DNA of 64,000 nucleotides from Pseudochrobactrum saccharolyticum (GTDB lineage Bacteria > Pseudomonadota > Alphaproteobacteria > Rhizobiales > Rhizobiaceae), in NCBI RefSeq assembly GCF_008801715.1, contig NZ_VZPG01000003.1, positions 1 through 64,000 of the forward strand, written 5' to 3'. The position numbers were made by a program, and so were the translations under genes. Shown one piece after another: positions 7,253-27,705 of the stretch. The stretch's first letter is position 1, and every line of letters begins with the position of its first letter. The notes under the pieces were generated by a model. That model saw only the letters and a program-made list of their open reading frames with translations. It was not told where the DNA came from and did no database searches.

Positions 7253-7267
7253 TTTACCGCCTCACCC

Positions 7268-7290: not shown

Positions 7291-7335
7291 GCTGCCCTGA
7301 TTCTAGCATGACTGGGGTTTAGCCCAATTAAAATA

Positions 7336-7378: not shown

Positions 7379-7441
7379 TATATTTAAACCATCAACAGCG
7401 CGAAGAAGCACCCGCCGATCCGCTAAACGATGGAGAGAAAC

Positions 7442-10350: not shown

Positions 10351-10358
10351 GGTGCTTC

Positions 10359-11421: not shown

Positions 11422-11669
11422 TGACAGATCAGATCAACACCGGTGGTGCAGCGTTTCCAATTATTGGCACAGAAAACACGAACTATGTCCATGAGGGTAT
11501 GACCCTGCGCGATTACTTCGCTGCGAAGGCGCTCCCTGTATTGCTCAGTGAACTATACGCCCAAAGTGTCCGGAGAAACGTCCGTTACGAAGATGCTTAC
11601 GCCGCTGCATCAAAAGCTGCATATGAACTTGCCGATGCCATGCTTGCAGCCCGTGGAGGTGCGCTATGA
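11421..11669 (+). CDS. Hypothetical phage protein with GMTLRDYFAAKAL motif
   Basis: An 82-aa protein carrying AAFPIIG and GMTLRDYFAAKALP, a motif seen in many small phage proteins of unknown function. The C-terminal half is helical (AAASKAAYELADAMLAAR). Start and stop overlap neighbours by 1 and 4 bases. Confidence 0.65.
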   Translation: MTDQINTGGAAFPIIGTENTNYVHEGMTLRDYFAAKALPVLLSELYAQSVRRNVRYEDAYAAASKAAYELADAMLAARGGAL

Positions 11670-12969: not shown

Positions 12970-12971
12970 GC

Positions 12972-13115
12972 ATGACCGTTGAAGCCAGTAAATTAATCCG
13001 TGAGCAAATACGGCAGCGCAGCAATCCTATCGATTGCCCTGACACAAAGTTGATGGAGCAACTCGTTGAGGAAGCCAATCAACGCGCCCTGAAAGGACAG
13101 CAGCATGACAAGTGA
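12972..13115 (+). CDS. 47-aa hypothetical prophage protein
   Basis: A 47-aa frame starting MTVEASKLIREQIRQRSNPI. It begins 2 bases after the previous stop, with GGGGAGTGAG as ribosome binding site, and its end overlaps the next ATG by 11 bases. The tight fit argues for translation. Helical and charged; unknown function. Confidence 0.5.
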   Translation: MTVEASKLIREQIRQRSNPIDCPDTKLMEQLVEEANQRALKGQQHDK

Positions 13116-13641
13116 ATTGATCTCCCAAATTGATAGCCTTTTAGCACTCGACGCTAATGGATGTCTTGTTCCGCATGGTATCGGCGGGTTAGCTCGCGAG
13201 TTGCTTGAACGCTGTCAGGTCGAACTAAACACCCGCGCCACGCCTTCCGCCGATCCGCTGGCGGGGTTACAGCGATATGATCTGGATTTCCACGGGTTGC
13301 ATGGAGAAGACGCTTATATGAGAAAGGATGAGACCGGCGAATACGTCCTTCACTCCGAAGCCGCCAAGATCATTGCGGAACAGGCGGCGGAGATTGAGCG
13401 AATGAAGTCCGATCGCCTTTATGTAGTCGGATGCAATGACGGATACAAAACCGCAGAAGCCGAGCTCGCGCAGATCAAGGCGCAGGAGCCGGTGATGTGG
13501 TTATGCGTACATGATGATAGAAGGTCGGATAGAGCGATTACCACACCCTCTCCTTCGAGAAGAGATATTTTAAATGCAGACGGCTACGAAATAACCCCGC
13601 TCTACGCCTCGCCACTCGCACCGGAAGGAGGGAAGAATTGA
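13105..13641 (+). CDS. Ea22-like/variable accessory phage protein
   Basis: A 178-aa protein with a helical middle (EAAKIIAEQAAEIERMKSDR), then AQEPVMWLCVHDD and a C-terminal EITPLYASPLAPEGGKN. The EPVxW ... PLYxxP pattern is typical of Ea22/DUF551-like accessory phage proteins, whose function is unknown. Stop overlaps the excisionase TTG start by 4 bases. Confidence 0.6.
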   Translation: MTSELISQIDSLLALDANGCLVPHGIGGLARELLERCQVELNTRATPSADPLAGLQRYDLDFHGLHGEDAYMRKDETGEYVLHSEAAKIIAEQAAEIERMKSDRLYVVGCNDGYKTAEAELAQIKAQEPVMWLCVHDDRRSDRAITTPSPSRRDILNADGYEITPLYASPLAPEGGKN

Positions 13642-13997
13642 CAGAGCTACCAAGCTGGACTGCAAACCTCACGCCTGTGGATATGGCCGGAGCGGCGACA
13701 TTGCTTGGCGTGTCACGCAGATATCTTGTCGATGCGATTAAAAAACATAGCCACTATGAGAGACGCGGGGCAAAGAAGGTGTTTTACCCCGAACATATTG
13801 CACTATTACGGGATGCTTTAACGTGTCAGGACTCAAACTCGAACATAAAAACGGAATTTGGCACGTTACCGGCACCGTCGCAGGAAAGCGCATTCGAAAA
13901 AGCCTTGGCACTCGCGACAAAGCAACCGCAGAGGAGCTTAAAGCCCAATATGAAGCGAAGCTCTGGAAACGCCACACTTACGGCGAAGAAGCAGTAA
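13638..13997 (+). CDS. xis: Putative excisionase (HTH, Xis-like)
   Basis: A 119-aa protein. Residues 15-60 form a winged-helix/MerR-type HTH (DMAGAATLLGVSRRYLVDAI) and a basic wing. Start is TTG at 13638 with GGAGGGAAG upstream. Its 3' third overlaps the integrase start by 175 bases in another frame, so the Ser/Thr/Lys-rich tail may be a by-product of the overlap. Placement directly before the integrase is the usual xis-int order; it would bind arm DNA and direct excision. Confidence 0.65.
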   Translation: MTELPSWTANLTPVDMAGAATLLGVSRRYLVDAIKKHSHYERRGAKKVFYPEHIALLRDALTCQDSNSNIKTEFGTLPAPSQESAFEKALALATKQPQRSLKPNMKRSSGNATLTAKKQ

Positions 13998-14866
13998 GGA
14001 CGTTCGAGGAAGCAGCACTAAGCTACCTTGAACAGGGTGGCGAAGGCCGTTTTCTCCCGAAGGTGCTCAAGTTCTTTAAAGGCCGCGCTGTTGGCTCAAT
14101 TAAGCCAGCGGAAATTCGTCAGATGGCAATATCGATTTATCCGACTGGCGCACCCCGTACGCGCAACCGGCAAGCTGTTGCCCCTGCCCGGGCTGTCATC
14201 AACCACGCTCACGATCTTGGCTGGTGTGGCCACATCAAGGTCAAGCAATTTGAAGTGCAAAAATCACTCAAGCACAAACCGGTTGATCGCATGTGGCTCG
14301 ATGCATTCCTGACAGAAGCAGACAAAAGTAACCTGCATCATCTGTCTGCCCTTGTTCTTTTCATGAACCACACCGGCACCCGCGTTTCCGAGGCAATACG
14401 GCTTAAAGGCAAATACGTAGACCTTGAAAACCGCATGGTCATTTTGGAGAAAACCAAAACAGATGAATGGGAAACACGACACCTCACCGAAGAACTGGCG
14501 GTACGTATTTCAAGCCTTGGTGCGGGGGCGAATGATCGTGTATTCTCATATACAGACCCGAAGGCAGTTAACCGGCGAATGAGAGCAGTTTGCGAACGTG
14601 CCGGTATTGAACCACGCAGCACACATTCCGCAGGTAGGCACTCTTTCGGAACGAATGTTATGGCGGCCGGAGCACGCGTAAAGGATGCTATGGAAGCAGG
14701 CGGCTGGAAGTCAGCCAAGCTATTCATGGAAACCTATGTGCACAGTCATGAAGGCGGCAAACGTGTTGCAGCTTTGTTAAATGATGAAAATTCACCAACT
14801 GGCACGATTTTGACAAGCACACCCAAACCGTCACGGCGAAGGTTCGGAAAACAAAAGGAAAAATGA
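13823..14866 (+). CDS. int: Tyrosine recombinase integrase of prophage 1
   Basis: A 347-aa phage integrase. The N-terminal domain covers about residues 1-150; the catalytic domain shows TGTRVSEAI (Arg near 187), THSAGRHSFGT (R272-H273; the His sits one residue off the usual H-x-x-R spacing) and the nucleophile in ETYVH (Tyr near 305). Start is GTG at 13823 inside xis. The stop lies only 19 bases before the tRNA-Thr 3' fragment that forms the attachment site, so it integrates at the tRNA gene. Expected to catalyse insertion and, with Xis, excision. Confidence 0.92.
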   Translation: MSGLKLEHKNGIWHVTGTVAGKRIRKSLGTRDKATAEELKAQYEAKLWKRHTYGEEAVRTFEEAALSYLEQGGEGRFLPKVLKFFKGRAVGSIKPAEIRQMAISIYPTGAPRTRNRQAVAPARAVINHAHDLGWCGHIKVKQFEVQKSLKHKPVDRMWLDAFLTEADKSNLHHLSALVLFMNHTGTRVSEAIRLKGKYVDLENRMVILEKTKTDEWETRHLTEELAVRISSLGAGANDRVFSYTDPKAVNRRMRAVCERAGIEPRSTHSAGRHSFGTNVMAAGARVKDAMEAGGWKSAKLFMETYVHSHEGGKRVAALLNDENSPTGTILTSTPKPSRRRFGKQKEK

Positions 14867-14884
14867 CTGTCGGCTGCGTCTCTT

Positions 14885-14927
14885 GGTAATGGAGAGGTCG
14901 AGAGTTCAATCCTCTCTCGCAGCACCA
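14885..14927 (+). repeat. Attachment site: 3' part of tRNA-Thr(GGU) between the two elements
   Basis: From about 14885 the sequence matches the anticodon loop (TTGGTAA), variable region, T-arm (GAGAG-TTCAATC-CTCTC), acceptor 3' strand and encoded CCA of an alphaproteobacterial tRNA-Thr(GGU). The D-arm and a proper 5' acceptor are missing, so it is a fragment, not a gene. The last 23 bases (14905-14927) recur exactly at 27656-27678. It is the junction of prophage 1 and element 2. Confidence 0.8.
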
Positions 14928-14986
14928 TTCTATCTCGTTGAATGTGCTTATCTTCTTGAAAGACAACACCTTTTGGACGGCCTCTT

Positions 14987-15007
14987 GGTACACAGAGGTG
15001 GTACACA
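14987..15007 (+). repeat. Candidate integrase arm-binding repeats, left end of element 2
   Basis: GGTACACAGAG at 14987-14997 and GGTACACA at 15000-15007, the second touching the integrase start codon. The 11-base word recurs at 27586-27596. Both full copies are separated from their 23-bp att core by exactly 59 bases, on opposite sides. Confidence 0.5.
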
Positions 15008-16779
15008 TGGGTTTGCCTATGCCTTCTCCTTACAAGCATCCTAAGACCGGCGTCTATTATCTCAGACAACGGGTCCCCGCTGATTTGAAGGATAAGGCGA
15101 GGGGCAGGATTGTCGCCCTTCCAATAAGCGGAACACTCAAAAGCTTCACAGTGGGCGATGGCGTTAAGGCTTCTCTTGAGACGAAAGACCCGACAGAAGC
15201 CAAAGCGCGTCACCGTGACGCCGACGCGGCGCTGTCGAAGTTCTGGGAGGCAATGCGGAACGGGCCGCTCAGCCTGACCCAGAAGGAAGTCGCGGAACGC
15301 GCAGGGCTAGTCTACAAATTCTTTGCTGACACATTCGAAGACGATGCGGAGGTCCCTGAACTCTGGGAGCGGTCGCAGCGTATAAACGCGACTGTACTTA
15401 AGAAAGCGAAGCTAGGGAAACGCCCGACTTACCCCCTGACTGTGACCCAGCGTGACATTCTGGAACCGCGTTTCGGCGGCTTTGTGGATAAGCTGCTGAT
15501 TGATACCGGAGAGCAAGTTTACCAAGAAAGCCGTGATAAGCTTCTGGTAGCCGTTGCTGAAGCCTTACAACAATCGACAGGCACCATACTGAAACGTGCG
15601 GACGGCGATTATTCGCCTGATGCGATACGCCAGCGTTACCCGGAATATGTGCCTATAGAAAAGCCACAGACTGCGCCGAGAAAGACTGAGGAACGGAGCG
15701 GTGCGAAGCTAGACCTATACAACCTCCTCGACCACAAATTTAAAAACAAGGGCAAGGCCAAGACCCACCGCGATTACCGCAGCGAGATTGACAAATTCGT
15801 GAAGTTCATCGGCCATAGTGACGCTGAGCGGATAACCAAAGCCAATGTTCGGGAGTGGAGAGACGCGTTAATTGCTCAGGGGCTTTCCCTCAAGACCATT
15901 AACGACAAGCGGCTCACTGCCATTAAAGCAGTGCTCGCCCACGGCGTTGCAGAGTTCAGTCTAACCCAGAATGTTGCTGATGGCATTCGGGATAAGCGAC
16001 AGCAAGCCGCGCCGAATGGGTCCAAGGGGTATTCACTCGAACAGGCTAAGACGATCCTACAGGCCACATTTGGGGGGGCCAGTAAGGAACTTGACCCGCA
16101 TTACCAAAGGGCTGTCTTTTGGGTGCCGTGGATTTGCGCCTACACCGGCCTACGCGTGAGTGAGATTACACAGCTTCAGGGCAAGAATGTCCGGGACGAG
16201 GACGGCCACCCGATCTTTGTTATCACTCCGGAGGATGGCAGCACAAAGAGCGGAAAGGCATGGACGACAGGCATTCACCCGCATCTGATCGAAATGGGCA
16301 TTCTGGACATGTTCAAGGCTGTGGGGGACGGCCCTGCCTTCTATCGAGCCTACCCGTCTGGAACGGACCTGCAGAAGATATCGGGAAAGCACCGGGCCAA
16401 GGAGAGCGCTTCCCGCGTGGGCGATTGGGTGACAGCCACGCTAGGCGAGACGGCCCCGGGAGGGAGGCCTAATCACGCTTGGCGACACACCTTTACGACT
16501 GTCACGCGGCCTGCCGATTTAAATAAAGAAGCGCGTGACTACATGCTCGGTAGCCGATCAACGACTGATGCGCGAGAAGCTTATGGCGATTGGCCCCCGA
16601 GTGTAGTTTGTCGGGAGATCGAGAAGGTTCCTCGCTTCAACGTGAAGGAAACAGAGTATCGGCCCACGCTGAAGGTTATGAAGCCGAAGCCGATAAGTGA
16701 GAGCCAAGCGCAGCTAAAGAAGACCAAATCAGGCAAACTGGTACTTTCACCGCGTCCCCCTATTAGAGAACATTCTTAG
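15007..16779 (+). CDS. Large tyrosine integrase of element 2
   Basis: A 590-aa recombinase. The N-terminus (PYKHPKTGVYYLRQRVPADL) is a DUF6538-type motif of large Rhizobiales island integrases; the SAM-like core-binding domain lies near residues 240-340; the catalytic domain shows TGLRVSEITQL (Arg), HAWRHTFTT (H-x-x-R) and AYGDW (Tyr). I start at ATG 15007 with AGAGGTGG upstream; a frame from 14938 would add 23 residues. It starts 80 bases from the att core and points into element 2. Clearly distinct from the 347-aa phage integrase next door. Confidence 0.9.
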   Translation: MGLPMPSPYKHPKTGVYYLRQRVPADLKDKARGRIVALPISGTLKSFTVGDGVKASLETKDPTEAKARHRDADAALSKFWEAMRNGPLSLTQKEVAERAGLVYKFFADTFEDDAEVPELWERSQRINATVLKKAKLGKRPTYPLTVTQRDILEPRFGGFVDKLLIDTGEQVYQESRDKLLVAVAEALQQSTGTILKRADGDYSPDAIRQRYPEYVPIEKPQTAPRKTEERSGAKLDLYNLLDHKFKNKGKAKTHRDYRSEIDKFVKFIGHSDAERITKANVREWRDALIAQGLSLKTINDKRLTAIKAVLAHGVAEFSLTQNVADGIRDKRQQAAPNGSKGYSLEQAKTILQATFGGASKELDPHYQRAVFWVPWICAYTGLRVSEITQLQGKNVRDEDGHPIFVITPEDGSTKSGKAWTTGIHPHLIEMGILDMFKAVGDGPAFYRAYPSGTDLQKISGKHRAKESASRVGDWVTATLGETAPGGRPNHAWRHTFTTVTRPADLNKEARDYMLGSRSTTDAREAYGDWPPSVVCREIEKVPRFNVKETEYRPTLKVMKPKPISESQAQLKKTKSGKLVLSPRPPIREHS

Positions 16780-16907
16780 GACACGCTCACTGTCCCCGTA
16801 TCGGCTATAAGAAGGAAGCAATCCAAAGATACAAGTGAAGCATTTGCGACGGTTTAAAAGATAAAATAGGGAGATGAGCAATCTCCCTAGGTTTTGCAAA
16901 GATGCGC

Positions 16908-18023
16908 TCAGTTGTTTCCGATAAGAACTGGAAGGAAATCACCTGACGATAGTTGATTTAACTCTTCCCAACTTATACGTGCTTCTTGAAAGCCGAAAGC
17001 GTAGGGTAAAATATCATAAGGACTAAAATTTATCGTAATGCCTGCTTCGTTAAAACTAAACTGAGCTAACAAAGCCCATACGCTTTCGATGTCATTTTTA
17101 ATGTGCTCGGGAAAGCTGAGCAAGAAAGCATCAGTGTCAATCTCTTCATTTTCTTCTGTAATTTTTTTCTCACAGAGACTGAAAAGTTTTCTGGCGGTTT
17201 CATCATTTCCACGGAGGACGTCTTGTATGGTGATCTCACCCAAGTTTTCTGAAAAGTTGAAGGTCTTCACGTAATGGTTAGGGTGAGCCGCACCTTGGAA
17301 ATGAAAACTAGCTACAACAATCAACGAAACAAATTCATCTTTCCGAAAGAACTCGTTCGCGCTGTACTCCCAAAAAGATCGTAACTCAGGGTTCTCGTTT
17401 ATGTCATCTTCTTCCATAAACTTTCTATTCGAAAAGTAGGCTCCCAGAGCATCACTCTCAATAGTGGAGTTTATTAGCTTCCATATTGCAGAGGAGCCGC
17501 TATATTGTATATATTTACCCTCATAGGAGGCTCTATCAGTTTTTTCAATTATTTCCGCGCTGAAAGATACTATCTCATTATTCATAATTATTACACCTTT
17601 TCCAATATCTTTTATATGACCCCTCTGAAGAGATGCCTTATCAATAGATTTTCTTAATTCGTCCCGCCAGTTCCCCTTTTCATATTCAATATAGTGAAAT
17701 TTTAGCAGTTCCGCAGGGAGTGAAGATGCATCAAGTTTCAAGAATATTGCAAACAAACGACCGAATGGTTGGTCCTCGTTCAACAAAAGAGTATATTTGA
17801 TTTCACGCAGAACGACACCTTTACGCTCTAATATCTCCCGCGAACATAAATGTATTATTAGGTCGGCGCTTGCTTGAGCCGACTTTCGTTCCCCATCCCA
17901 GTCGTCTCCGCCTACCAGAGCTTCTTTATCAAACCAGACCTCGTGCCCTAATGTTGCTAGGTAAACGGCTACCTCTTTAGCCGTATTATAATGTTCGTTT
18001 GGATAACCTAGAAAAATCTTCAT
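16908..18023 (-). CDS. TIR domain fused to RsiV-like DUF3298 domain (candidate defence protein)
   Basis: A 371-aa soluble protein without signal peptide or membrane helix. Residues 1-128 are a TIR_2-type domain: strand MKIFLGYP, box VWFDKEALVGGDDW, strand DLIIHLCSREIL and GVVLREIKYTLL, with E74 as candidate NADase glutamate. Residues about 150-355 match the RsiV/PdaC C-terminal family (DUF4163-DUF3298): ASFHFQGAAHPNHYVKTFNF, ITIQDVLRG, and FSPYDILPYAFGFQEARISW. DUF3298 of Bacillus RsiV binds lysozyme. The gene is AT-rich relative to its neighbours and sits on the opposite strand beside the integrase, a normal cargo position. Inference: a sensor-effector that triggers NAD loss when the DUF3298 part binds a phage product. 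Confidence 0.8.
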   Translation of the reverse strand: MKIFLGYPNEHYNTAKEVAVYLATLGHEVWFDKEALVGGDDWDGERKSAQASADLIIHLCSREILERKGVVLREIKYTLLLNEDQPFGRLFAIFLKLDASSLPAELLKFHYIEYEKGNWRDELRKSIDKASLQRGHIKDIGKGVIIMNNEIVSFSAEIIEKTDRASYEGKYIQYSGSSAIWKLINSTIESDALGAYFSNRKFMEEDDINENPELRSFWEYSANEFFRKDEFVSLIVVASFHFQGAAHPNHYVKTFNFSENLGEITIQDVLRGNDETARKLFSLCEKKITEENEEIDTDAFLLSFPEHIKNDIESVWALLAQFSFNEAGITINFSPYDILPYAFGFQEARISWEELNQLSSGDFLPVLIGNN

Positions 18024-18283
18024 ACAACACCCCTGTCACACAAGGTATCTTTGACGTGTCGTATTTCTTAATCAAGGGGGTGACCAAAGAAACACGTGAA
18101 TAGCCTGCATGTTAGGCAATCGGTTAGGTCTATTGGAGCAAGCGCAATGGAGTAAACGATAGAAGAAGGTATCCTGCGGTATTTCCTCCTAGCTTAAATC
18201 GGCCACTTGGCTCAGGTGCCAATTAAGGCGTCTGTTAAGTCGGCTGCTACGACGAAGCCTCTTGCTCCCAAAATACTTATTAT

Positions 18284-18353
18284 AAAATCTGAACGGCCAA
18301 TCTGAGATAGATGATTAGGGCAGTCCCCCTGTGGACACCTTCGATCATCCTAA
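18284..18353 (+). repeat. Imperfect direct repeat, copy 1
   Basis: About 70 bases beginning AAAATCTGAACGGCCAATCT recur with about 10 differences at 19449-19520. Copies lie upstream and downstream of the SH3-domain gene. The interval 18024-18473 holds no other gene; a partial match to the 25-bp repeat family (GAATAGCCTGC) lies near 18098. Confidence 0.7.
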
Positions 18354-18473
18354 ATGTGCTGGACGCGTTCAAATGTTGTTCAGGCGTACCGTCATCACCA
18401 AAGCGACTTTCTTCTTTATGGACACAGCCTCAAATTTCCGCTTAGCTTTATTAGGGCAATTGCGGGGGATGAT

Positions 18474-19331
18474 ATGATTTGGCGGGTTAGACGTTCGATA
18501 AAGATCGCGCCGGGGATACGGATTAATCTCAATAAGAAGAGTACGAGTGTTCGAATTGGCCCCCGAGGTCTCGGGCATACAATTAGCTCTACGGGAAAGC
18601 GAACAACGACTGTCGGCATCCCCGGCTCAGGTCTTTCGTATTCTGAAACGACAACGCCGAAGAAAAGACGTGCAGCGAGTGATATGAAAAAACTCGCGAT
18701 CATTCCAGATGGCACACCGCCTCCACCGAAGCCAAAGCCGTCTATTTTTCAGGGTATTCTTACTATCGCTTTTCTACTATTCGGCGTTTCCTTCTGCGCC
18801 TCTCAGTTTAATACTTCTACCGATAATTCCGCCGATAGCAACGCAACTGTTGCACATAGCGCTGCCAAACCCGAGAAACCGCTCGGACTAATTCAGGCAC
18901 CCGCTAATGCATCAACGCCAGACGCCATAAGTGCTCGTGGTGATCAGTCACCAAAAGTCACAGAGGTTATGTTTGCAAAATCACGCGCAAATATCCGTAC
19001 CATGCCGGGAACAGCATCCAAGATTGTCAAGACTATAGATATTGGTACGTCAGTAACAGTTCTTGAACGGCAAGATGGATGGGTAAATGTATCCCATTCG
19101 ACCGAGGTTGGCTGGATAGTCGAGCGTTTACTATCAGATCAGCGACCTGCTTCTATAGCAAGAAACGCCCAGCCAAGCAGGACCACTACAAAGGCACCAG
19201 CAAGCAGCTTAGTAAGACCGAGTGCACCGAAACGATCGAATAATGGATACCAGCGTGGACCTCGCGGCGGTTGTTACTACTACACGGCTAGCGGCAATAA
19301 GCGGTACGTTGACCGTAATCTCTGCAATTGA
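18474..19331 (+). CDS. DUF4236-SH3b protein with C-terminal PBCV-type adaptor motif
   Basis: A 285-aa protein. N-terminal 55 residues are DUF4236 (IWRVRRSIKIAPGIRINLNK, then SVRIGPRGLGHTISSTGKRT). A single membrane helix lies near residues 88-105 (IFQGILTIAFLLFGVSF). A bacterial SH3 domain follows near 165-220 (SRANIRTMPGTASKIVKTID ... GWVNVS ... GWIVERLL), then a Ser/Thr/Pro linker, ending with RGPRGGCYYYTASGNKRYVD, a basic adaptor motif. Start chosen at ATG 18474 after GCGGGGGA. The SH3b part probably faces the periplasm and binds cell wall. Flanked by 70-bp repeats, so it may be a separate cassette. Confidence 0.75.
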   Translation: MIWRVRRSIKIAPGIRINLNKKSTSVRIGPRGLGHTISSTGKRTTTVGIPGSGLSYSETTTPKKRRAASDMKKLAIIPDGTPPPPKPKPSIFQGILTIAFLLFGVSFCASQFNTSTDNSADSNATVAHSAAKPEKPLGLIQAPANASTPDAISARGDQSPKVTEVMFAKSRANIRTMPGTASKIVKTIDIGTSVTVLERQDGWVNVSHSTEVGWIVERLLSDQRPASIARNAQPSRTTTKAPASSLVRPSAPKRSNNGYQRGPRGGCYYYTASGNKRYVDRNLCN

Positions 19332-19448
19332 AGCGGTTGACACATTGATTAAGGAACCAAGTTCAAACTCCTGAGGTCACGGTGTCGTGAACCACTATCG
19401 GCTGTTTCTATCCCGATTAGGAATGCCACCGCGCAAATGTTCATTACA

Positions 19449-19520
19449 AAAATCTGAGCGGCCAATCTGAGATAGATGATTAGCGCGGTCCCCCCGTGTA
19501 CCCCCTCGATCACCCTAATC
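19449..19520 (+). repeat. Imperfect direct repeat, copy 2
   Basis: Matches 18284-18353 in the same orientation, sharing AAAATCTGA-CGGCCAATCT, AGATAGATGATTAG and GTCCCCC blocks and the TCGATCA-CCTAA end. With copy 1 it brackets the DUF4236-SH3b gene. Confidence 0.7.
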
Positions 19521-19634
19521 GTAGGCCATTGAGCGGTCTGATGTGCGCACATGCGCGTTTCCTATGGTGTACGATAGGTCAGAGCCAGACAAGACAGAAC
19601 GGCTAACCTGAGGTGTCCACGGCAGGGGCGGGGT

Positions 19635-19692
19635 GGATAGGTTGCCCAGTGGCAGTACCATACCAATCAATAGGGCCTACAGTGGCAGTGTC
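19635..19692 (+). repeat. 25-bp iterated repeats, copies A and B
   Basis: Copy A at 19635-19659 and copy B at 19668-19692 fit the consensus NAATAG-SYTRC-NYAGTGG-CAGYACC. Both are on the plus strand upstream of the resolvase gene. Three further copies lie at 20594-20882. Confidence 0.6.
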
Positions 19693-19747
19693 ACGACCGA
19701 CAGCGGATACAGTGCGAGAAGTGAGGCAGCGCGTCTGTCGCCTTAAT

Positions 19748-19865
19748 AGTCCAACAGGGCTTGATCGTGCTGGACTGCTCCAAATGTCGTCCCGAAAGTC
19801 CAATTAGAATAGGTATTGACTTTATGGATTGCCTGTCCGATAAGTCTATAACGCTATTTGGACTT
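19748..19865. promoter_or_regulatory. Candidate res site of the serine recombinase
   Basis: Two inverted repeats share the half-site AGTCCA: AGTCCAACA/TGCTGGACT (19748-19756, 19768-19776) and AAGTCCAA/TTGGACTT (19796-19803, 19858-19865). They lie directly upstream of the serine recombinase, where Tn3-type resolvases bind two or three dimer sites and also repress their own gene. A possible -35/-10 lies in the same stretch (TTGACT near 19816). Confidence 0.5.
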
Positions 19866-19879
19866 AAGGGAACTCTCGG

Positions 19880-20494
19880 ATGAACTCGACACACACCACT
19901 ACGGCTTCCTACAGGGGCCAGCTTGTAGGATACGCACGTACCTCGACCACAGACCAGAAGGCAGGGCTGGCGGCTCAGGAACGCGACCTACACGCGGCAG
20001 GATGCGACCGCATATTCAGTGAACAGACCTCAGCCAAGGATGCTAAGCGGCCTGAACTTCAACGCGCCCTTGATCATTTGCGAGAAGGTGACACGTTCAT
20101 TGTCACTAAGCTGGACCGTCTGGCGCGTTCTGTTGCCGACTTGGTGGATATTACGTCTAAGCTGAACAGCAAGGGCGTGGCGCTCCGAATTCTTGCCATG
20201 AACCTCGATACAGCGACACCCACGGGTAAGCTTATGCTGAACCTATTGGGTTCCATAGCGGAGTTCGAGCGTGAACTTATGCTGGAACGCCAGCGTGAAG
20301 GCATTGCAGCCGCTAAAGCAGAAGGCAAATACAAGGGACGCGTACCTACAGCACAGCGTCAAGCTGACGAAATTATCCGGCTGAAGGATGAAGGTAAGAC
20401 CGTAGCTGAGATCATGGCACAAACCGGGGCAGGCCGCTCAAGCGTATTTAACATCCTTAAGGAAGCCGGAAAGACACGCGAAAGGGGCGGTTGA
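19880..20494 (+). CDS. Serine recombinase (resolvase/invertase family)
   Basis: A 204-aa Tn3-type resolvase. The catalytic domain shows LVGYARTSTTDQKAGLAAQ with the nucleophilic Ser, KLDRLARSVADL with conserved Arg residues, and GSIAEFERELMLERQREGI at the E-helix; the C-terminal HTH is near residues 160-195 (EIIRLKDEGKTVAEIMAQTG). Full-length. The preceding 130 bases hold inverted repeats that may be its res site. In a mobile element it may resolve dimers or invert DNA; no transposase is nearby. Confidence 0.92.
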   Translation: MNSTHTTTASYRGQLVGYARTSTTDQKAGLAAQERDLHAAGCDRIFSEQTSAKDAKRPELQRALDHLREGDTFIVTKLDRLARSVADLVDITSKLNSKGVALRILAMNLDTATPTGKLMLNLLGSIAEFERELMLERQREGIAAAKAEGKYKGRVPTAQRQADEIIRLKDEGKTVAEIMAQTGAGRSSVFNILKEAGKTRERGG

Positions 20495-20593
20495 GGGGCT
20501 TTTCGAGGATGTCTGGAGATTGAGGCGAAGCTCTGATCAAGAAAGACTACTGACGTTTGCCAGCTAATGGGCCGCAGAAGGAGTAACCCGCTC

Positions 20594-20882
20594 GAATAGC
20601 CTGCCTAGTAACAGCACCGTCCAGCTGTCCCACTCGGAATGTTCTCCTGTCCATTCTCAGCCGTTTGACCAGTTCAGACAGCACAACGGCGAATAGGGTG
20701 ATCAGGAGCAGGATATGCCCAAAAGTCCTCAGTTACCAAAAGTAACCATAATAGGTTACGCAGTGGCAGCACCTCGTCCGAATACCCACCCTAATAGCAG
20801 TATACTCGTGTTCGTTTCCATTCGAAGGCGACGGGCCCCTCAGTCGGAGCTTCAGTCGAATAGCCTGCACAGTGGCAGTACA
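20594..20882 (+). repeat. 25-bp iterated repeats, copies C, D and E
   Basis: Copies at 20594-20618, 20749-20773 and 20858-20882, all on the plus strand, e.g. GAATAGCCTGCACAGTGG at copy E. Degenerate partial copies occur near 20691 and 20790. The 599-base gap 20495-21093 between the resolvase and the ParB-domain gene holds these repeats and no gene I believe in. Confidence 0.6.
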
Positions 20883-21093
20883 GACATAGCTCACCACGTA
20901 GTGGCAACATTTCGACAATCGGGGCAACAGCAGCAGCAGTCACCGAACCAAGCTGCGACCATTAACGCCGTTTTGCCCCCGCAATGTTGGGACGTATGGC
21001 CCTTAATCGGTGTCCGTAGGACAAAACGCGATACGCCAGTCAGACACCTCAACACCAACTTAAACAACATCCTCAGACAACAAAGGAATAACC

Positions 21094-21855
21094 ATGAGAG
21101 AACCTCAGGGAACGCGGCTGCTTGCCATACGGCTAGACAGCGTGGTCCTCAATCCATCGACCCAGATCAGAGAGAAGAGCATTAATCCCGAGGTCGTTAA
21201 GAATTATCGGGAGGCCATGCGTCAGGAAACTCAGTTCCCTCCCATCACGGTCGTTCCTGTTGACCCTACAGACGACAGCAGGGGCTTCATCTTGATCGAC
21301 GGCTGGCACAGGTTCAGGGCCATGCAGGAACTCGGGATCGATTACACAGACGCCAATGTCATTATTGAAGCGGACCCTAACAGATACCAATGGCTTGCCG
21401 CTCAGGGCAACCGTACCCACGGCCTGAGCCTGACACGCAAGGACAAGCGAAGGGTGTTCAGAGCGTATGTGAAGGCGGGTGAACACCGAACAGGGAAGAT
21501 AGGCAAGGCAAAAGTTAAGTCGGCAAGACAAATGGCGAAGGAACTCCAAGGGATCGTCAGTCACCGTCGATTGCCTGATTGGATGCAGCAGGACTTCCCC
21601 AGCGTGTACAAACTCATGAGTGAACCCGATGCCACAAATGACGAACCAGAGCAGCCATTTGGGAAAGCCCAGCGAGAAAAAGCACGGGCTAGGGAAATTA
21701 TGATCCACGCAGGAGAGGTGAAATCGGCATTTTATTCGCTCACGGATATGGAACTCAGAAGCCAGATTAGGCAGCGCTACAGCTTCCTTCAGTTGGAAAG
21801 GCTAGAGCGCCCCGAGAGTGCTGTCCAAAAGGACTACGACAACGACGATTTCTAA
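21094..21855 (+). CDS. ParB/Srx N-terminal domain protein
   Basis: A 253-aa protein. Residues 10-100 form a ParB N-terminal fold: SVVLNPSTQIREKSINPEVV, PPITVVPV and GFILIDGWHRFRAMQELGID (the CTPase/nuclease-like box). A following helical part near 110-165 could be the HTH. In phages and mobile elements such proteins may partition DNA, regulate genes or nick DNA. The iterated repeats just upstream are candidate binding sites. No ParA partner is seen in the element, so plasmid-type partition is less likely. Confidence 0.8.
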   Translation: MREPQGTRLLAIRLDSVVLNPSTQIREKSINPEVVKNYREAMRQETQFPPITVVPVDPTDDSRGFILIDGWHRFRAMQELGIDYTDANVIIEADPNRYQWLAAQGNRTHGLSLTRKDKRRVFRAYVKAGEHRTGKIGKAKVKSARQMAKELQGIVSHRRLPDWMQQDFPSVYKLMSEPDATNDEPEQPFGKAQREKARAREIMIHAGEVKSAFYSLTDMELRSQIRQRYSFLQLERLERPESAVQKDYDNDDF

Positions 21856-21902
21856 CAAATTCAATAGGTTAGATAGAATGGTGTGAAATTTCACATCTCC
21901 GG

Positions 21903-21941
21903 GGGGCCAGTGGGGCCCCGAAACCCCTGTCCCGCAAGGGG
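21903..21941 (+). other. Two tandem GC-rich hairpins after the ParB-domain gene
   Basis: GGGGCC/GGCCCC (21903-21919, 5-base loop) and CCCCT/AGGGG (21924-21941, 8-base loop) follow the stop by 48 bases, preceded by the palindrome GTGAAATTTCAC. No T-run follows. They may be a terminator of the kind used by phage RNA polymerases or an mRNA processing or stability element. Confidence 0.4.
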
Positions 21942-21995
21942 GCAGCGCCAAATTACCTCAAAACAAACAATATGAAACAGGAAGAGAATTGAAGC

Positions 21996-22274
21996 ATGTA
22001 TATGAGAAACCGAACACTTCTTCCAGCTACGCCCGAACGAAATTTCCAGATGACGGCTAAGGAGCGCAGGGAGGAAATATGGCGGCTTATTCGCTCAGGC
22101 CTCGGTAGCCAGGACGATCAAGCACGGGCGACTGGCTTCACCGTGTCCCGCGTATGTGATTATCGCAGACTGTGGAAGTTCATCTTAAGAGAACACCCAG
22201 CGATTGCCGACGGTGTGACATGCGAGGAAGCCCTGAGCCTAGCCAAAGAGCAAGGCGTTAAGACCAAGCGATAA
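21996..22274 (+). CDS. Hypothetical small protein with possible HTH
   Basis: A 92-aa basic protein. QARATGFTVSRVCDYRRLWK could form a recognition helix. AGGAAGAG lies about 10 bases upstream of the first ATG; ATGs at 22002 and 22050 are alternatives. Followed after 30 bases by RNase HI, with which it may be co-transcribed. Not recognised. Confidence 0.5.
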   Translation: MYMRNRTLLPATPERNFQMTAKERREEIWRLIRSGLGSQDDQARATGFTVSRVCDYRRLWKFILREHPAIADGVTCEEALSLAKEQGVKTKR

Positions 22275-22304
22275 AATAGAAGAACAGATAACTAATTGGA
22301 AAGA

Positions 22305-22790
22305 ATGACAAACACCGAAACCGCTCTGAATGTTACGACACATGCCGCCACAATCTACACTGACGGTTCTTGCCTATCGAACCCGGGTCCCGGTGGCTGG
22401 TCTGCTATAATCCTCCACGACAATAGCGAACCTCAGGAAATCTCAGGCGGCACCGTCTCAACGACGAACAACCGAATGGAACTTATTGCCGTAGTTGAGG
22501 CAATCAAGGCCATTTCACCGGTCACCGCACCTGTGACAATCATCAGCGATAGCCAGTATGTCATCAACGGCATGACAACTTGGTTGAGAGGGTGGAAGGC
22601 AAAAGGTTGGAGGAACGCAGCAAAAGCGCCAGTGAAAAATCAGGACCTTTGGGAAATCTTAGACAGCCTCAATACGCCCCTCATTACGTGGACGTGGGTT
22701 AAAGGCCATGCAGGGAATGAATGGAACGAACGGGCAGACGTACTGGCGAACACAGCAGCGCAACAGGCGGCGAACCTGAATGCAGCATGA
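22305..22790 (+). CDS. rnhA: Ribonuclease HI
   Basis: A 161-aa RNase H type 1. Active-site residues are present in order: IYTDGSCLSNPGPGGW (Asp), NRMELIAVVEAI (Glu), ISDSQYVINGM (Asp) and KGHAGNEWNERADVLA (His and Asp). It removes RNA from RNA-DNA hybrids. The GGAAAG site precedes ATG 22305; a TTG frame at 22296 is unlikely. A copy on a mobile element is consistent with T7-like podovirus ancestry, where RNase H removes replication primers. Confidence 0.92.
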   Translation: MTNTETALNVTTHAATIYTDGSCLSNPGPGGWSAIILHDNSEPQEISGGTVSTTNNRMELIAVVEAIKAISPVTAPVTIISDSQYVINGMTTWLRGWKAKGWRNAAKAPVKNQDLWEILDSLNTPLITWTWVKGHAGNEWNERADVLANTAAQQAANLNAA

Positions 22791-22931
22791 AAATAACCGG
22801 ACCTATAGCGCGGAAGATCAAGTGGCCACGAATACGTGCCATACGCCTCAGAGATTGTCATGCGACGGCATTCTTGCTTTCCGTGATGTTTTCCCATCCT
22901 TGCAGATAGAGCGCCTTCCGAAATCCGTTTG

Positions 22932-24095
22932 CTAGTGCTTATTCACGATTGCGGGAGCAGAGACATCAATATCCTTCATAGTCTGAAAGCGGCTATCATA
23001 CGACTGATGTAAACATGCCACGTCCGGGCCGCAAGCATCTCTGGTTTTCAGCCACAAACGCTGATTTTCCAAGAGAGCTTTGCGGCGTTTCGTGTTAGAA
23101 AAGCCACGAATGAAAAGGTAGATGGAATTCATTGCTCGATCCTTTGCCCACAGGCGCGGGTTGCTGCACAGCGCGTTCTCTGTGGACGTATGTGCCTTTT
23201 GGCAATCAAAACTCGGCCCATTCACTCCCGTGGGCAGTCCCACACTACGGAGGTGCTCCTCAGTCTCTAGACACACCGTCAGCGGACCTTTGTTCAACAA
23301 CCCAGCCTTTGCTTCTTCTAGCATAGGTGCCCAAACACCGATCCAGACTGTGTTCCCGGCGAGTTGCTGTCCAACTTGGATGGTTTTCAAATGCTCACGT
23401 TCAACTTCGTGTTGATCCATCTGCAAAAAACCTTCACAGCGGGACCGTAAAACGCCGTATGCAACAAACCTGTCGGCGTAGGTATCGACGGTTGGCGCTT
23501 GCGTTGGCGTAGTGACATGTCTCCCCTCCTGCTCGAATATTTCGATGCCAAGCGCCCGGGCTAGTTGAGGTGTTAACAGAAGGAAATCCTTCGGACCAGC
23601 TAAAGTGAAATACCGTATTGCTTCGATACGAAGGCCGAGGTGGGTCAGGTAGGAGCCAATCTCAGCGTTAGCTACTCCCGAAGTGATATATTCGCCATTC
23701 TCTTTGCTGTATGCGGCGTGGAAACCTATTTTGGATGAAGCCGACATATAACGTCTGCTTCCTGCAACCCAGACCAAGCCACAAGCAGAGAAACAGTTGC
23801 CTTCCGGTGAGACCACTGTGGCATAGTTGTTAAGGCGAATTTGCGCACCGATCCCCAGAGCTTCCCGAACAAGCCCTCCCGGACTGTTGAGAAGAACGGA
23901 TATCCGCGTGTGTCCTCGAACTAAGTCTTGAAAACGGTCAGCATCGCCATCCACGATTTCGCCTTTGATGGAAACCAATGCGATTTCGCCGGGTATGTTG
24001 AAAAGTTCGATTTCTGCCGCCGATCCCGGGCCTGCAATGCAAAGTACCACCAAAATGAAGCAGAGTTTCCGCCACACGATCAATCCCCCAATCAA
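22932..24095 (-). CDS. Secreted ClpP-fold (COG3904-like) protein fused to LprI domain
   Basis: A 387-aa protein with a signal peptide (residues 1-26, ends GPGSAA). Residues 30-195 are a ClpP/crotonase-fold domain: LLNSPGGLVREALGIGAQI, then CFSACGLVWVAGSRRY with a candidate catalytic Ser, and KIGFHAAY with a His. Residues about 295-380 match the LprI/DUF1311 family: FDCQKAHTSTENALCSNPRL, and ENQRLWLKTRDACG, with paired cysteines. LprI of Mycobacterium tuberculosis inhibits lysozyme. A periplasmic protease plus lysozyme-inhibitor fusion is an unusual combination. Leftward, followed in the same direction after a 4-base gap from the Xre gene, so likely one operon. Confidence 0.75.
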   Translation of the reverse strand: MIGGLIVWRKLCFILVVLCIAGPGSAAEIELFNIPGEIALVSIKGEIVDGDADRFQDLVRGHTRISVLLNSPGGLVREALGIGAQIRLNNYATVVSPEGNCFSACGLVWVAGSRRYMSASSKIGFHAAYSKENGEYITSGVANAEIGSYLTHLGLRIEAIRYFTLAGPKDFLLLTPQLARALGIEIFEQEGRHVTTPTQAPTVDTYADRFVAYGVLRSRCEGFLQMDQHEVEREHLKTIQVGQQLAGNTVWIGVWAPMLEEAKAGLLNKGPLTVCLETEEHLRSVGLPTGVNGPSFDCQKAHTSTENALCSNPRLWAKDRAMNSIYLFIRGFSNTKRRKALLENQRLWLKTRDACGPDVACLHQSYDSRFQTMKDIDVSAPAIVNKH

Positions 24096-24099
24096 ACTA

Positions 24100-24342
24100 T
24101 TACAGCGCCCTTAGCCTAACCCCTTGTCCGCCTTCGATTAAATCTCCATCAGAAAGAAAGACCGCTCCAGCCTCTTCGAGAGCATTGCGCAGATCAACCA
24201 GCGTCCTGTCATAAGGTGTCCGCTTTCCTTGCTCAAACGCCGCAATTGTGGCTTTAGCTACCTTTGAAGCCTCAGCAAGTCGGTCCTGTGACCAGCCCAA
24301 AAGAGCACGAGCTGCCCGGCATTGTGCAGCAGATACGATCAT
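24100..24342 (-). CDS. Xre-family HTH regulator
   Basis: An 80-aa protein, nearly all HTH_3: QCRAARALLGWSQDRLAEAS, KVAKATIAAFEQGKRTPYDR. Small stand-alone Xre proteins of this form are common on alphaproteobacterial islands. It is upstream of and probably co-transcribed with the ClpP-LprI gene (4-base gap) and diverges from the gene at 24435. Two inverted repeats between them are likely its operators. Confidence 0.85.
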   Translation of the reverse strand: MIVSAAQCRAARALLGWSQDRLAEASKVAKATIAAFEQGKRTPYDRTLVDLRNALEEAGAVFLSDGDLIEGGQGVRLRAL

Positions 24343-24373
24343 TTTAAACTAACCTTATCAATAAATGTTTGAC

Positions 24374-24412
24374 TTACACTCGATGTAACATTAACAATTT
24401 AAACCAATGTTA
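24374..24412. promoter_or_regulatory. Inverted repeats between xre and the divergent gene
   Basis: TTACA-CTCGA-TGTAA at 24374-24388 and TAACATT-N13-AATGTTA at 24386-24412 in a 92-base divergent promoter. They overlap, suiting autoregulation by the Xre protein. Confidence 0.45.
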
Positions 24413-24434
24413 ACGCAAGTGGAAGCCGTAACTT

Positions 24435-24848
24435 ATGAACACCCATATCTCACCCTCGACATTCATCTCAGCCACCACAGGCGAAACCGTAAGCTTCAAT
24501 GCTTGGCATCACTCACAGATGACCATGAGAGAAGCTATCGACCTTATGGACGCAGGAGGTCACCCTTACGTCAGCCCGAATGTACCTCAAGGCTTCGACA
24601 CGGTGTTGGGTTATTTCTTCTCCTGTTACGGCTGGTTTCCTGCCATGTACGATGACGAAGAGGGCAACGCCATGCAGCGCGGCAGTGGCATGAAAGAATA
24701 TGACGACTGGTGTGCCAAGTATGCCCGGATGCTGGGACTGGAAGTCAAGAAGGTCGAAGCCCCGACAGCACTTAAGGTCCACGGCATAATGACGCTGAAT
24801 GCGTACCCCGAGGCGTTGCTTGAGATACGCCTGACTGAGATGGGCTAA
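24435..24848 (+). CDS. Hypothetical protein of element 2
   Basis: A 137-aa soluble, acidic protein (start MNTHISPSTFISATTGETVS) rich in Met, Tyr and Trp, with no signal peptide or recognised domain. Divergent from the Xre gene. The ATG at 24435 is preceded by GTGGAAG. Position just ahead of the internal virion protein gene would suit a phage-derived regulator or morphogenesis protein, but this is only context. Confidence 0.55.
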   Translation: MNTHISPSTFISATTGETVSFNAWHHSQMTMREAIDLMDAGGHPYVSPNVPQGFDTVLGYFFSCYGWFPAMYDDEEGNAMQRGSGMKEYDDWCAKYARMLGLEVKKVEAPTALKVHGIMTLNAYPEALLEIRLTEMG

Positions 24849-24997
24849 CAACACTACGAAATGAAAGACCCGGGCGACAAGCGCGGCGTCACCTAACTGA
24901 TCCTCACATTCCCCCTGAAATTCACCCCTCAGATGCGCTTGGTCGTGTCTGGGAACGGCATTCCATTGCCAAATTCAACACCGAAAGGAACAATTCC

Positions 24998-27478
24998 ATG
25001 CAGCAAGGCAGAGTTCAGACGCCTGACTTTAAGAATAATCTCGCCCTGAAACCAGCGGCGCGACCTGTCGATACCTTTGAAGCCCCGGCTCAGATACCTC
25101 AGGATAACAACACGGCACGATTGGTGGACGCTTTATCAGCCTTCTCAAGCACCATAGGCCAGCTTGCGCCGACACTTGGACAAGCCGAAGCGGCTTCCAA
25201 GAATAAGAAGGATGATGCTGCATTAGCTGAAAGGCAGAACTTTTTCATGAAGGCGTCACCTGAGGAACAACGGCGCTATATCGTTGAGAAGCACGGGCTT
25301 GACCGGGATGAGGTTAAACAGGCTGCTGCAATCGGCAAGATGGATGGTGCTCGATATGCTGAAATGGTCCAAGGTGAACTTCAGACGCACATGCAGACCG
25401 AGTTCGACTGGAACAACGGTGACCCTGAGGAATACGCCAGACGCTTCCTGCAAAATAAGCTGCAAGAAATAGGCCGTACGGACGAACCAACTTTCGTATC
25501 GGCATATTCTCAGGCAGGGCAGTCCTTCATTCAGAACGTGTCTGCAATGCGTATTAAGCGACAGGCCGACCATATGGACGTGAAGATCAAGGGAGCGGCG
25601 TCAGACTATTTCCGGCTCACGGTTGACGACAGTGTGAAGGCCGGGGATGATCCTCAGGTCACCGCGAAGAAGCTTTTGACGGCTGCTTCTGATGCAGGGA
25701 AGCGCGGCACCTTGTTGCTCGAAGACGGAGACGTGGACAAGTACCAGCTTGATGAACTTGAGCGGCGCATTGACAGTAACCCTCAGGTTGTCATTGCGGC
25801 GATCCATCAGGGACGCACAGGGGCCGGTGGCAATCGCCCTTCATATATTGACGATCCCGCAACGCGAGACCGCGCTATTCTTCTCGACAGGAAAGCCGGG
25901 ATTGCGCTCCAGCTTCAACGTAACAGGCAGGAGCGGGATACGCTCATTGCAGCCAATACGCAGGCTATCGAAAGTGGTAACGGTTTCCTTGGTCTCAGAG
26001 ACCTTGTGCAATTCAATCCGCATTCAGGAGAAGAAACGGTCTATAGCGTCGAAAGCCAGAAGGACGAAGCAGTCCGCAACTGGATCAAGCAGGACGATGC
26101 AACAGCAAAGCGGCTTGGAGAAGCGCCTCCTCAGACAATCTTGAGACGCGCTCAGCAGTTCGCCATAGCGGGGCTACAGGACCCTGACCTTAAAGCCGCA
26201 ACCGACAGCATTGCACAGGCGGGTTCACCTGAGGTCCTCCAGCAACCGGAAGCCAAGGAGAAGCTTGTTCAGCGCCTTGAACTCATCAACACTGTCACCA
26301 AGACGAACAAGAACCTTTCGGCTTCCTATCTCAAGGGGCAGGACAAGGAGTTTGTTGACGGCTTCTTTGCAGCACGGGAAGCGTTAGGCCGCGACGATAC
26401 AGCCGCCTTATCATTCGCCTATGCAGTCACCAATCCGTCACCTCAGGCAAGAAGTAGGGTATTTGCCGCACGTCACGACATAACCAACGCTGTGAAAGCG
26501 CTCAGGGATAGCAAATGGTTCAGCCTGAATAATCCGAGTATGGAGAACTCGGGCATGGTTGAAGACCATCTCTGGGATTTGTCGGAGAAGTATGCCGCTG
26601 CTGGTCTTAGCGGTCAGGATGCGGTTGCTGCTGCAAAGTCGGCAATCGAGAAGTCTGCAATCCATTATAACGGCACCCTTATAGATGTCGGCTCAATCAA
26701 CACCCGCGCTGAAATGCCGAGTGACTTCAAGGGGGCTGTAGAGGCTCAGGTTGCGGCGTTCCTTGAGGACAGCAAGGGGAAGGCTTACGATGCATCTCAG
26801 GTTACGATCTATCAGACTGGTGACAAGGACGGTCGTTTCTATCTGGTCGATAAAGACACCATGTCCCCCGTGACTGACGACAACGGGGCAATGCATTTCT
26901 TCACGCTCAGCAATCTCAGGGCGTGGGATAACGCAAACCGTCAAATGCTCGATAATGCGAACGCATCATACAACGCATTTAACCAGAGCGTGAACGCCAA
27001 GGGCCTGTTTCAGGCGCTCGATAAAGACGGTTCGACTGTCTGGATCAACACGAATAGGGAAATCTGGCACAACACCGCTGAGGAAGGCCAGACGCCAAAC
27101 TGGAAGAAGACCGGGAAACGTTACAGCAGGACCACTGCGATTAGCCCTAGGGGCTTACCTGTCTTCAAACGCCCTGAGCGCATGAACCAGAAACTCAAGG
27201 CCGCTTCGACATGGTATCAGCGTGTTGTTGTGGGTGCCAAGATCACGGCATCTGCTGTTGCCGACAAGTATGCCGACGAGATGCAGAACGATGCAAGCTA
27301 TAGCGATATTGCTAAGGAAACTGGAACTCGGATTGCGAAACCAGTGAAGGCAGCAACAGACGCCACAATCGGCAGCGCTGGGCGTTCAGCGGCGGAAATG
27401 ATCAACGGCGCTCAGGACTTTATCTCAGTTGGGAAGAAAGCCGAGGACGCGATTAATGAAAGGAACAGGGGCCGTTAA
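24998..27478 (+). CDS. Podovirus internal virion (ejection) protein, T7 gp15-like
   Basis: An 826-aa protein, hydrophilic and mostly helical. The start (MQQGRVQTPDFKNNLALKPA, then DTFEAPAQI and a helical SAFSSTIGQLAPTLGQAEAA) is typical of the internal core proteins of T7-like phages of alphaproteobacteria. In T7, gp15 with gp14 and gp16 builds the channel that ejects DNA across the envelope. AAAGGAACA precedes the ATG. No capsid, portal, tail, gp14 or gp16 gene lies in this element, so the gene is orphaned. It is intact with no frameshift, suggesting either recent decay of a prophage or retention for a purpose. Confidence 0.7.
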   Translation: MQQGRVQTPDFKNNLALKPAARPVDTFEAPAQIPQDNNTARLVDALSAFSSTIGQLAPTLGQAEAASKNKKDDAALAERQNFFMKASPEEQRRYIVEKHGLDRDEVKQAAAIGKMDGARYAEMVQGELQTHMQTEFDWNNGDPEEYARRFLQNKLQEIGRTDEPTFVSAYSQAGQSFIQNVSAMRIKRQADHMDVKIKGAASDYFRLTVDDSVKAGDDPQVTAKKLLTAASDAGKRGTLLLEDGDVDKYQLDELERRIDSNPQVVIAAIHQGRTGAGGNRPSYIDDPATRDRAILLDRKAGIALQLQRNRQERDTLIAANTQAIESGNGFLGLRDLVQFNPHSGEETVYSVESQKDEAVRNWIKQDDATAKRLGEAPPQTILRRAQQFAIAGLQDPDLKAATDSIAQAGSPEVLQQPEAKEKLVQRLELINTVTKTNKNLSASYLKGQDKEFVDGFFAAREALGRDDTAALSFAYAVTNPSPQARSRVFAARHDITNAVKALRDSKWFSLNNPSMENSGMVEDHLWDLSEKYAAAGLSGQDAVAAAKSAIEKSAIHYNGTLIDVGSINTRAEMPSDFKGAVEAQVAAFLEDSKGKAYDASQVTIYQTGDKDGRFYLVDKDTMSPVTDDNGAMHFFTLSNLRAWDNANRQMLDNANASYNAFNQSVNAKGLFQALDKDGSTVWINTNREIWHNTAEEGQTPNWKKTGKRYSRTTAISPRGLPVFKRPERMNQKLKAASTWYQRVVVGAKITASAVADKYADEMQNDASYSDIAKETGTRIAKPVKAATDATIGSAGRSAAEMINGAQDFISVGKKAEDAINERNRGR

Positions 27479-27585
27479 GGGCGGATAAGAGAATGAAGAA
27501 AGTGCGCCTCAGGGGAAACTCTGGGGCCGCTTATCGGCTTTGCTTAATAACAGGACTTTGGGCCTTGAGCATGAGACATGAAGGT

Positions 27586-27596
27586 GGTACACAGAG
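27586..27596 (+). repeat. Candidate integrase arm repeat, right end of element 2
   Basis: GGTACACAGAG, identical to 14987-14997 and in the same orientation, exactly 59 bases before the att core at 27656. In the circular form the two copies would flank the core symmetrically by distance. Confidence 0.5.
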
Positions 27597-27655
27597 CAGA
27601 AATTGCCTGAAAAAAGATCGTTGCTTTTCAATTGGTTGGCGTTTGAGATTTAGTT

Positions 27656-27678
27656 TTCAATCCTCTCTCGCAGCACCA
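27656..27678 (+). repeat. Right attachment site of element 2 (tRNA 3' end)
   Basis: These 23 bases, from TTCAATCC through the encoded CCA, are identical to 14905-14927. Upstream sequence does not match a tRNA. Downstream comes a Rho-independent terminator, as expected for the native tRNA-Thr transcription unit, so this marks the original 3' end of the tRNA gene and the return to replicon backbone. Confidence 0.85.
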
Positions 27679-27705
27679 GTTTTCCTTAACAAATCAAATA
27701 TATGT

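Follow-up and report, generated by a model that had tools for sequence, protein, structure and literature searches.

A TIR-DUF3298 fusion on an integrated element of Pseudochrobactrum saccharolyticum is a probable single-gene anti-phage alarm

We analyzed 64,000 nucleotides of Pseudochrobactrum saccharolyticum DNA (contig NZ_VZPG01000003.1, positions 1 to 64,000; hereafter the window), in which one gene encodes a protein that joins an N-terminal TIR domain to a C-terminal DUF4163-DUF3298 domain with the predicted fold of RsiV, the lysozyme-receptor anti-sigma factor. This TIR-DUF3298 protein is probably a single-gene, mobile-element-borne anti-phage alarm, in which the C-terminal domain would be the sensor that triggers cleavage of NAD+ by the TIR domain. 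In the proposed mechanism, the RsiV-fold domain, borrowed from an exported family, would serve in the cytoplasm as sensor or regulator. Its encounter with a ligand specific to infection would let the TIR domains self-associate, a switch suggested by SpbK and SPARTA. The assembled TIR domains would then cleave NAD+, and its loss would kill or stall the infected cell before phage release.

Architecture of the TIR-DUF3298 protein

The gene and its parts are as follows.

16908..18023, minus strand: TIR-DUF3298 gene, 371 amino acids, ATG start
17652..18017, minus strand: TIR_2 domain, residues 3-124 (Pfam); no export leader
17802..17804, minus strand: candidate catalytic glutamate E74, invariant throughout the 11 family members
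17277..17546, minus strand: DUF4163/PdaC-like half of the predicted RsiV-fold domain, residues 160-249 (sub-threshold Pfam match plus model alignment)
16965..17222, minus strand: DUF3298 half of the predicted RsiV-fold domain, residues 268-353 (Pfam)
17274..17291, minus strand: loop 1, AAHPNH, residues 245-250, opposite the S169-bearing lysozyme loop of RsiV in the alignment
16992..17027, minus strand: loop 2, FSPYDILPYAFG, residues 333-344, opposite the loop of RsiV with Y255, P259, and Y261 in the alignment

The initial annotation, made from the sequence without database searches, had described an AT-rich gene for a cytoplasmic 371-residue protein with a TIR_2-type N-terminus and a candidate E74. 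This description was borne out. The open reading frame (ORF) at 16908-18023 had exactly the bounds of the gene, TIR_2 matched above its Pfam cut-off (E 7.7e-12; 46.2 bits, cut-off 28), E74 was present, no export leader was seen, and the guanine-plus-cytosine (GC) content was 0.399 versus 0.511 in the surrounding element. DUF3298 also matched above its cut-off (E 6.3e-9; 37.1 bits, cut-off 24.1), and the PdaC/DUF4163 match fell under it (E 7.7e-4; 21 bits, cut-off 29.1). NCBIfam gave no named family above cut-off for the window protein (P0001) or for five other TIR fusions scanned. The motifs GAAHPN and FSPYDILPYAFG, read earlier as DUF4163/DUF3298 hallmarks, were both found; they mark the DUF3298 family at large, most of whose members are exported, and do not mark RsiV, which lacks both GGAH and PYAxG.

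Eleven distinct full-length members with the same domain order were collected, the window's own and those of 10 further genomes or plasmids, ruling out a chance domain match or a mis-joined ORF. The residues invariant in all 11 TIR parts included F4, Y7, D32, G39, W42, G69, E74, and L79.

TIR effector half

By a hand count on the printed alignment, E74 lay over position 77 of 8FEX. The E77A catalytic mutant served as a control in a TIR-APAZ/Ago study (PMC10474274), whose entries 8I87 and 8I88 share the 8FEX sequence. Since the invariant glutamate aligned with the SPARTA catalytic E77, the TIR half is likely to have NADase activity. At E <= 0.01, a TIR profile matched eight distinct PDB sequences: six from SPARTA or short-pAgo TIR-APAZ proteins and two named only as TIR-domain proteins; SPARTA TIR-APAZ chains were the nearest solved TIR relatives by sequence and among the nearest by structure. 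PADLOC recognized the TIR half alone, as a SPARTA-type TIR (residues 19-128, profile positions 22-129 of 443). Membership of SPARTA (short pAgo/TIR-APAZ) was ruled out, as the match was confined to the TIR part and APAZ was not matched. Ago was absent among the 25 of 61 neighbor families listed, in tallies that included no search aimed at Ago.

Predicted RsiV fold of the C-terminal half

In structure comparison, model residues 149-368 aligned with RsiV 76-284. The initial annotation would have been contradicted had residues 150-355 folded unlike RsiV; in the model, they were predicted to share its fold. The table of PDB matches is a re-reading of the Foldseek matches and not an independent search. 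When only sequence was compared, the top match among solved proteins was 3CYG, a DUF3298-type protein (E 3e-7), and RsiV was matched only by a broad 22-sequence profile (E 5.3e-8), not by the single protein or a nine-member profile. Across the 11 members, the C-terminal part diverged faster than the TIR part. Parts of both loop motifs were nevertheless invariant, and parts of both loops remained so across cytoplasmic and exported members; the most conserved C-terminal motifs (AH, Y..xP, G) were common to exported DUF3298 proteins.

One observation concerns the fold itself. The C-terminal domain of the Agrobacterium member (L007:12001-13134) gave a weak match to the Rv3036c esterase model (E 9e-4, well under the cut-off), a hint that some proteins of the RsiV-type fold may be enzymes.

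Distribution and origin of the family

Full-length TIR-DUF3298 genes were carried by plasmids of Rhizobium leguminosarum (L006) and Agrobacterium (L007), two of four matching plasmid records, and by Thalassovita, Methyloceanibacter methanicus (L009), and one metagenome-assembled genome without a finer name (three of eight loci). The plasmid hosts are alphaproteobacteria, as are Thalassovita and Methyloceanibacter. In samples drawn around the window's host, the fusion occurred in 4/297 genomes at the level of its family, Rhizobiaceae (its own and three others), and in 4/397 at the level of its order (its own, Methyloceanibacter again, and so two further); the class (385) and phylum (398) samples held the window's copy alone. 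The scan of genome contigs used exact peptide patterns, and this rarity partly reflects its sensitivity. A core gene of the genus was ruled out, with no match in the six other same-genus genomes searched, one of them 61% complete. Among PDB entries, the host's GAPDH came nearest to 3DOC, at about nine-tenths identity judged by eye. The 198 pattern stretches in viral contigs included no TIR-DUF3298 relative, and no match was found in phage records, although one copy (L089) sits in a prophage-like region.

No strong hydrophobic 12-mer was detected in the first 60 residues of any of the 11 TIR fusions (highest score 1.78, in L101; cut-off 1.9), which rules out an exported effector. In contrast, 26 of the 28 distinct DUF3298-only relatives among the loci gathered had a strong hydrophobic leader, searched over up to 110 residues to allow for wrong starts. 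The other two were L023, which scored 1.89 against the cut-off of 1.9, and L051, with an over-extended ORF start. TIR was found in none of these 28 relatives. A loose motif test picked out an LprI-like N-terminal part in 12 of them, one or more of these being doubtful. Nine proteins (L002, L004, L023, L036, L104, and L112-L115) looked exported, with an LprI-like N-terminus, assigned by motif and not by Pfam, before the DUF3298 C-terminus, and so combine two domains whose names are linked to lysozyme; their kinship to the window places most of them in the alphaproteobacteria.

GC content was below that of the flanks in all 11 TIR fusions (mean -0.089, two by <0.02; p 1.7e-4, uncorrected for relatedness), compared with 6 of the 14 exported DUF3298 genes tested (mean difference -0.003). 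Because the exported relatives have leaders and near-native GC whereas the TIR fusions are leaderless and of low GC, the fusion looks like a domain of exported proteins recruited into a mobile cytoplasmic protein, the direction of transfer being our inference.

The element carrying the window copy

The gene lies on an integrated element with the following features.

14928..27678, no strand: integrated element bearing the TIR gene, 12.75 kb, delimited by comparison with a same-genus genome (G006)
14905..14927, plus strand: left attachment (att) repeat, a direct repeat formed by the tRNA-Thr 3' end
27656..27678, plus strand: right att repeat, a direct repeat; empty site in L092 at 2173-2195
14938..16779, plus strand: tyrosine integrase (Pfam DUF6538 and Phage_int_SAM_1 above cut-off; PHROG integrase, E 7.7e-24), drawn from the first listed start of its ORF
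19880..20494, plus strand: serine resolvase/invertase (Pfam, PHROG)
22932..24095, minus strand: exported-looking ClpP-like plus LprI protein on the same element, with no demonstrated link to the TIR gene

G006 matched the window up to 14927 (94%) and continued, with a 23-bp overlap, at 27656-27759 (91%), which marks the empty site; its right-flank match spanned 104 bases only. Besides the integrase, the TIR gene, and the resolvase, the element encodes DUF4236/SH3, ParB-like, RNase H, ClpP/LprI, and helix-turn-helix proteins and an 826-residue protein at its right edge (24998-27478), for which no Pfam, PHROG, or NCBIfam match was obtained at the limits used. The TIR gene adjoins the integrase gene and converges with it, in line with the antisense placement first described; the LprI-domain gene, noted then as sharing the island, indeed lies within the same element.

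A 70-nt direct repeat (89% identical; 18284-18353 and 19449-19518) flanks the DUF4236/SH3_3 gene at 18354-19331, as if this gene were a cassette. To the left of the element, a prophage-like region (window 1-14927) has at its end 45 nt that duplicate the 3' end of tRNA-Thr. The intact tRNA-Thr was located at C3:492910-492984, toward the opposite end of the contig (518,294 bases), and genes at 50971-54914 of this contig are presumably repABC-like. The contig is probably circular, with the prophage spanning its ends.

Neighborhoods of the family

Recombinase, prophage, or defence genes were present within ~8 kb in 8 of the 11 copies, among them that of the window. A recombinase, DarT, and a UvrD helicase accompanied L006; an integrase, IetA and IetS, and a GIY-YIG gene accompanied L007; and an integrase, a Schlafen AlbA_2 gene, and a GmrSD-like gene accompanied L008. 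In L010, a retron-type reverse transcriptase (9737-11044; PADLOC RT_outgroup, E 2.2e-123) lay beside the TIR-DUF3298 gene. L089, in its prophage-like region, and L090 both had portal and terminase genes as neighbors, and L091 had LydA holin and Phage_lysozyme2 genes. The family showed the mobile, patchy distribution outside housekeeping contexts that an anti-phage gene should have; the initial annotation had counted homologues mainly in housekeeping contexts as refuting, and these made up 3 of the 11.

PADLOC and PHROG tallies compared the TIR loci with 11 control loci. The controls were drawn from 14 loci fetched among the 28 DUF3298-only relatives, after three on truncated contigs were dropped. 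In the PHROG tally, integrase, portal, and major-head families occurred near TIR loci and were absent from the control families listed; both tallies list the best 25 of 58-90 families, and the absence of integrases from the controls is not proven.

Several results weigh against an anti-phage role. The count of 8/11 was made post hoc, without a matched control, and the other three copies (L009, L101, and L102) lie among ordinary-looking genes, including those at L009 that we take to be guaA and the like, although a heuristic gene caller may misname genes in GC-rich DNA. Within 6 kb (121 neighbors of the TIR loci, 128 of the controls), PADLOC recognized specific systems in 2 of 11 TIR loci (the retron-type reverse transcriptase and IetAS), or three counting a lone GajB-like UvrD helicase, and in 1 of 11 controls (type II restriction-modification), so there was no convincing enrichment of defence genes and a defence island is no more than suggested; the controls' neighbors shared generic mad families with the TIR loci. 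The family is also rare, as counted above. In structure comparison, TIRs without a known NADase role and nucleoside-processing enzymes scored nearly as high as NADase TIRs, so that fold by itself is no proof of NADase activity. The AlphaFold2 model, built from four sequences, was modest (mean predicted local distance difference test score, pLDDT, 61.8; predicted template-modelling score, pTM, 0.49). Both key loops were under pLDDT 50, and their shapes are accordingly not established.

What the C-terminal domain may sense

The initial annotation proposed that the C-terminal domain binds a lysozyme or endolysin. The RsiV contacts in PMC5014341 were placed by three MAFFT modes, and the RsiV letters agreed with that paper at all 17 positions printed, which confirms the numbering. 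Eleven loop contacts fell in the same column in all three modes (E163, T165, Q166, A167, S168, S169, T171, Y255, E256, G260, and Y261), and five did not (E88, S93, K137, H139, and D225); a HMMER alignment agreed with MAFFT from A167 on and placed T165 and Q166 otherwise. Among the 11, only A167 (A246) and Y255 (Y336) were identical, and E256 was similar (D337). As for the residues mutated in the lysozyme study, sequence alignment placed one of three as kept: P259 corresponded to P340 (proline in 9/11 members), S169 was replaced by P248 (proline in 11/11), and Y261 by A342 (alanine in five members, valine in six). According to PMC5014341, S169 and Y261 lie at the lysozyme active site, and S169W lowered lysozyme binding; neither P259A nor Y261A had this effect singly, whereas binding was weaker with both changes together (P259A Y261A). 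The same paper reports that MPT64 (Rv1980c), with the same fold, did not bind or co-purify with lysozyme, and fold alone thus does not imply lysozyme binding.

The original proposal was not supported, given the replaced S169 and Y261, the non-binding MPT64, and phage lysis genes beside only 1 of the 11 loci (L091). Because the single P259A and Y261A changes left binding intact, the missing side chains argue against lysozyme binding without excluding it, and with S169 probed by a bulky tryptophan, other lysozymes could still be bound. Endolysin sensing is possible, and an alarm in which the RsiV-like domain binds a cytoplasmic phage lysozyme and so releases the TIR NADase fits the predicted receptor fold, the kept tyrosine and proline, the holin and lysozyme genes at L091, and the exported LprI-DUF3298 fusions, which link the domain with a family whose name refers to lysozyme inhibition. 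Set against the lost active-site contacts, we regard this alarm as unlikely. Lysozyme is monomeric, whereas the TIRs of SpbK and SPARTA are active as assemblies. Clustering favors multivalent ligands (portal, capsid, or wall polymer); a monomeric endolysin would fit less well, unless its binding frees an intramolecular brake. A broader version, in which a lysozyme-receptor fold relocated from envelope to cytoplasm and coupled with a TIR NADase senses the phage lysis program, through endolysin or released cell-wall products, and drains NAD before burst, is doubtful.

Conservation gives mixed hints about the ligand, the faster divergence of the sensor half standing against the invariant loop parts. 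The former would suit recognition of an oligomeric phage part (portal, capsid, or tail) that clusters the TIRs, as SpbK does on the dodecameric YonE portal (PMC12847820); the shared motifs of exported DUF3298 proteins, which are unlikely to meet capsids, speak against it, and we hold this structural-protein sensor to be possible though not the expected outcome. The invariant loops would instead fit a conserved ligand, not an arms-race protein. The conserved saddle might bind a peptidoglycan fragment, a precursor, or another conserved ligand present in the cytoplasm during lysis or infection, and the upstream half matches, below threshold, a Pfam family named after the deacetylase PdaC. No such ligand was found in the literature covered and the invariance may be purely structural, leaving this idea rather unlikely. 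Finally, the gene might have no part in defence and instead stabilize mobile elements, as an NADase toxin or through addiction or competition, with the C-terminal domain as an intramolecular brake. Single genes on an element, on plasmids, and in prophage-like regions would agree with this; no single partner gene recurred beside members by eye, among neighbors that were not clustered systematically, and we consider such a role improbable.

Comparison with known systems and significance

The published literature covered, which left out most subscription-journal papers and bioRxiv preprints outside PMC, contained no description of a TIR-DUF3298 pairing, in agreement with the initial annotation; titles and abstracts on endolysin plus TIR held nothing on it either. 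PMC13236601 describes a different lysis-linked immune system. Like SpbK of ICEBs1 in Bacillus subtilis, the protein combines a TIR, here a putative NADase, with its own sensor domain on an integrative element. According to PMC12847820, however, SpbK has an N-terminal four-helix sensor, which docks on the phage portal and clusters the TIRs, followed by a C-terminal TIR; here, the TIR comes first and the presumed sensor is the RsiV-fold domain. Unlike in RsiV, the TIR begins at the protein start in place of the anti-sigma part, no transmembrane segment with an extracellular sensor was found, and most lysozyme-contact residues are absent. The exported DUF3298 proteins (3CYG, PA4972/4E72, BF2082/3S5T, and LprI-DUF3298) share the fold and the GGAH or PYAxG-type motifs, and differ in their leaders, near-native GC, and lack of TIR.

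Known inputs of TIR defence proteins include nucleic acids, nucleotide signals, and a phage portal. If true, sensing by an RsiV fold would add a new kind of input module and connect intracellular immunity with the detection of envelope stress, raising the now testable question of whether phage lysis proteins or wall products can trigger immunity from within the cell. The TIR-DUF3298 family also provides a clean comparison set, as many Pseudomonadota have this domain in native, exported proteins.
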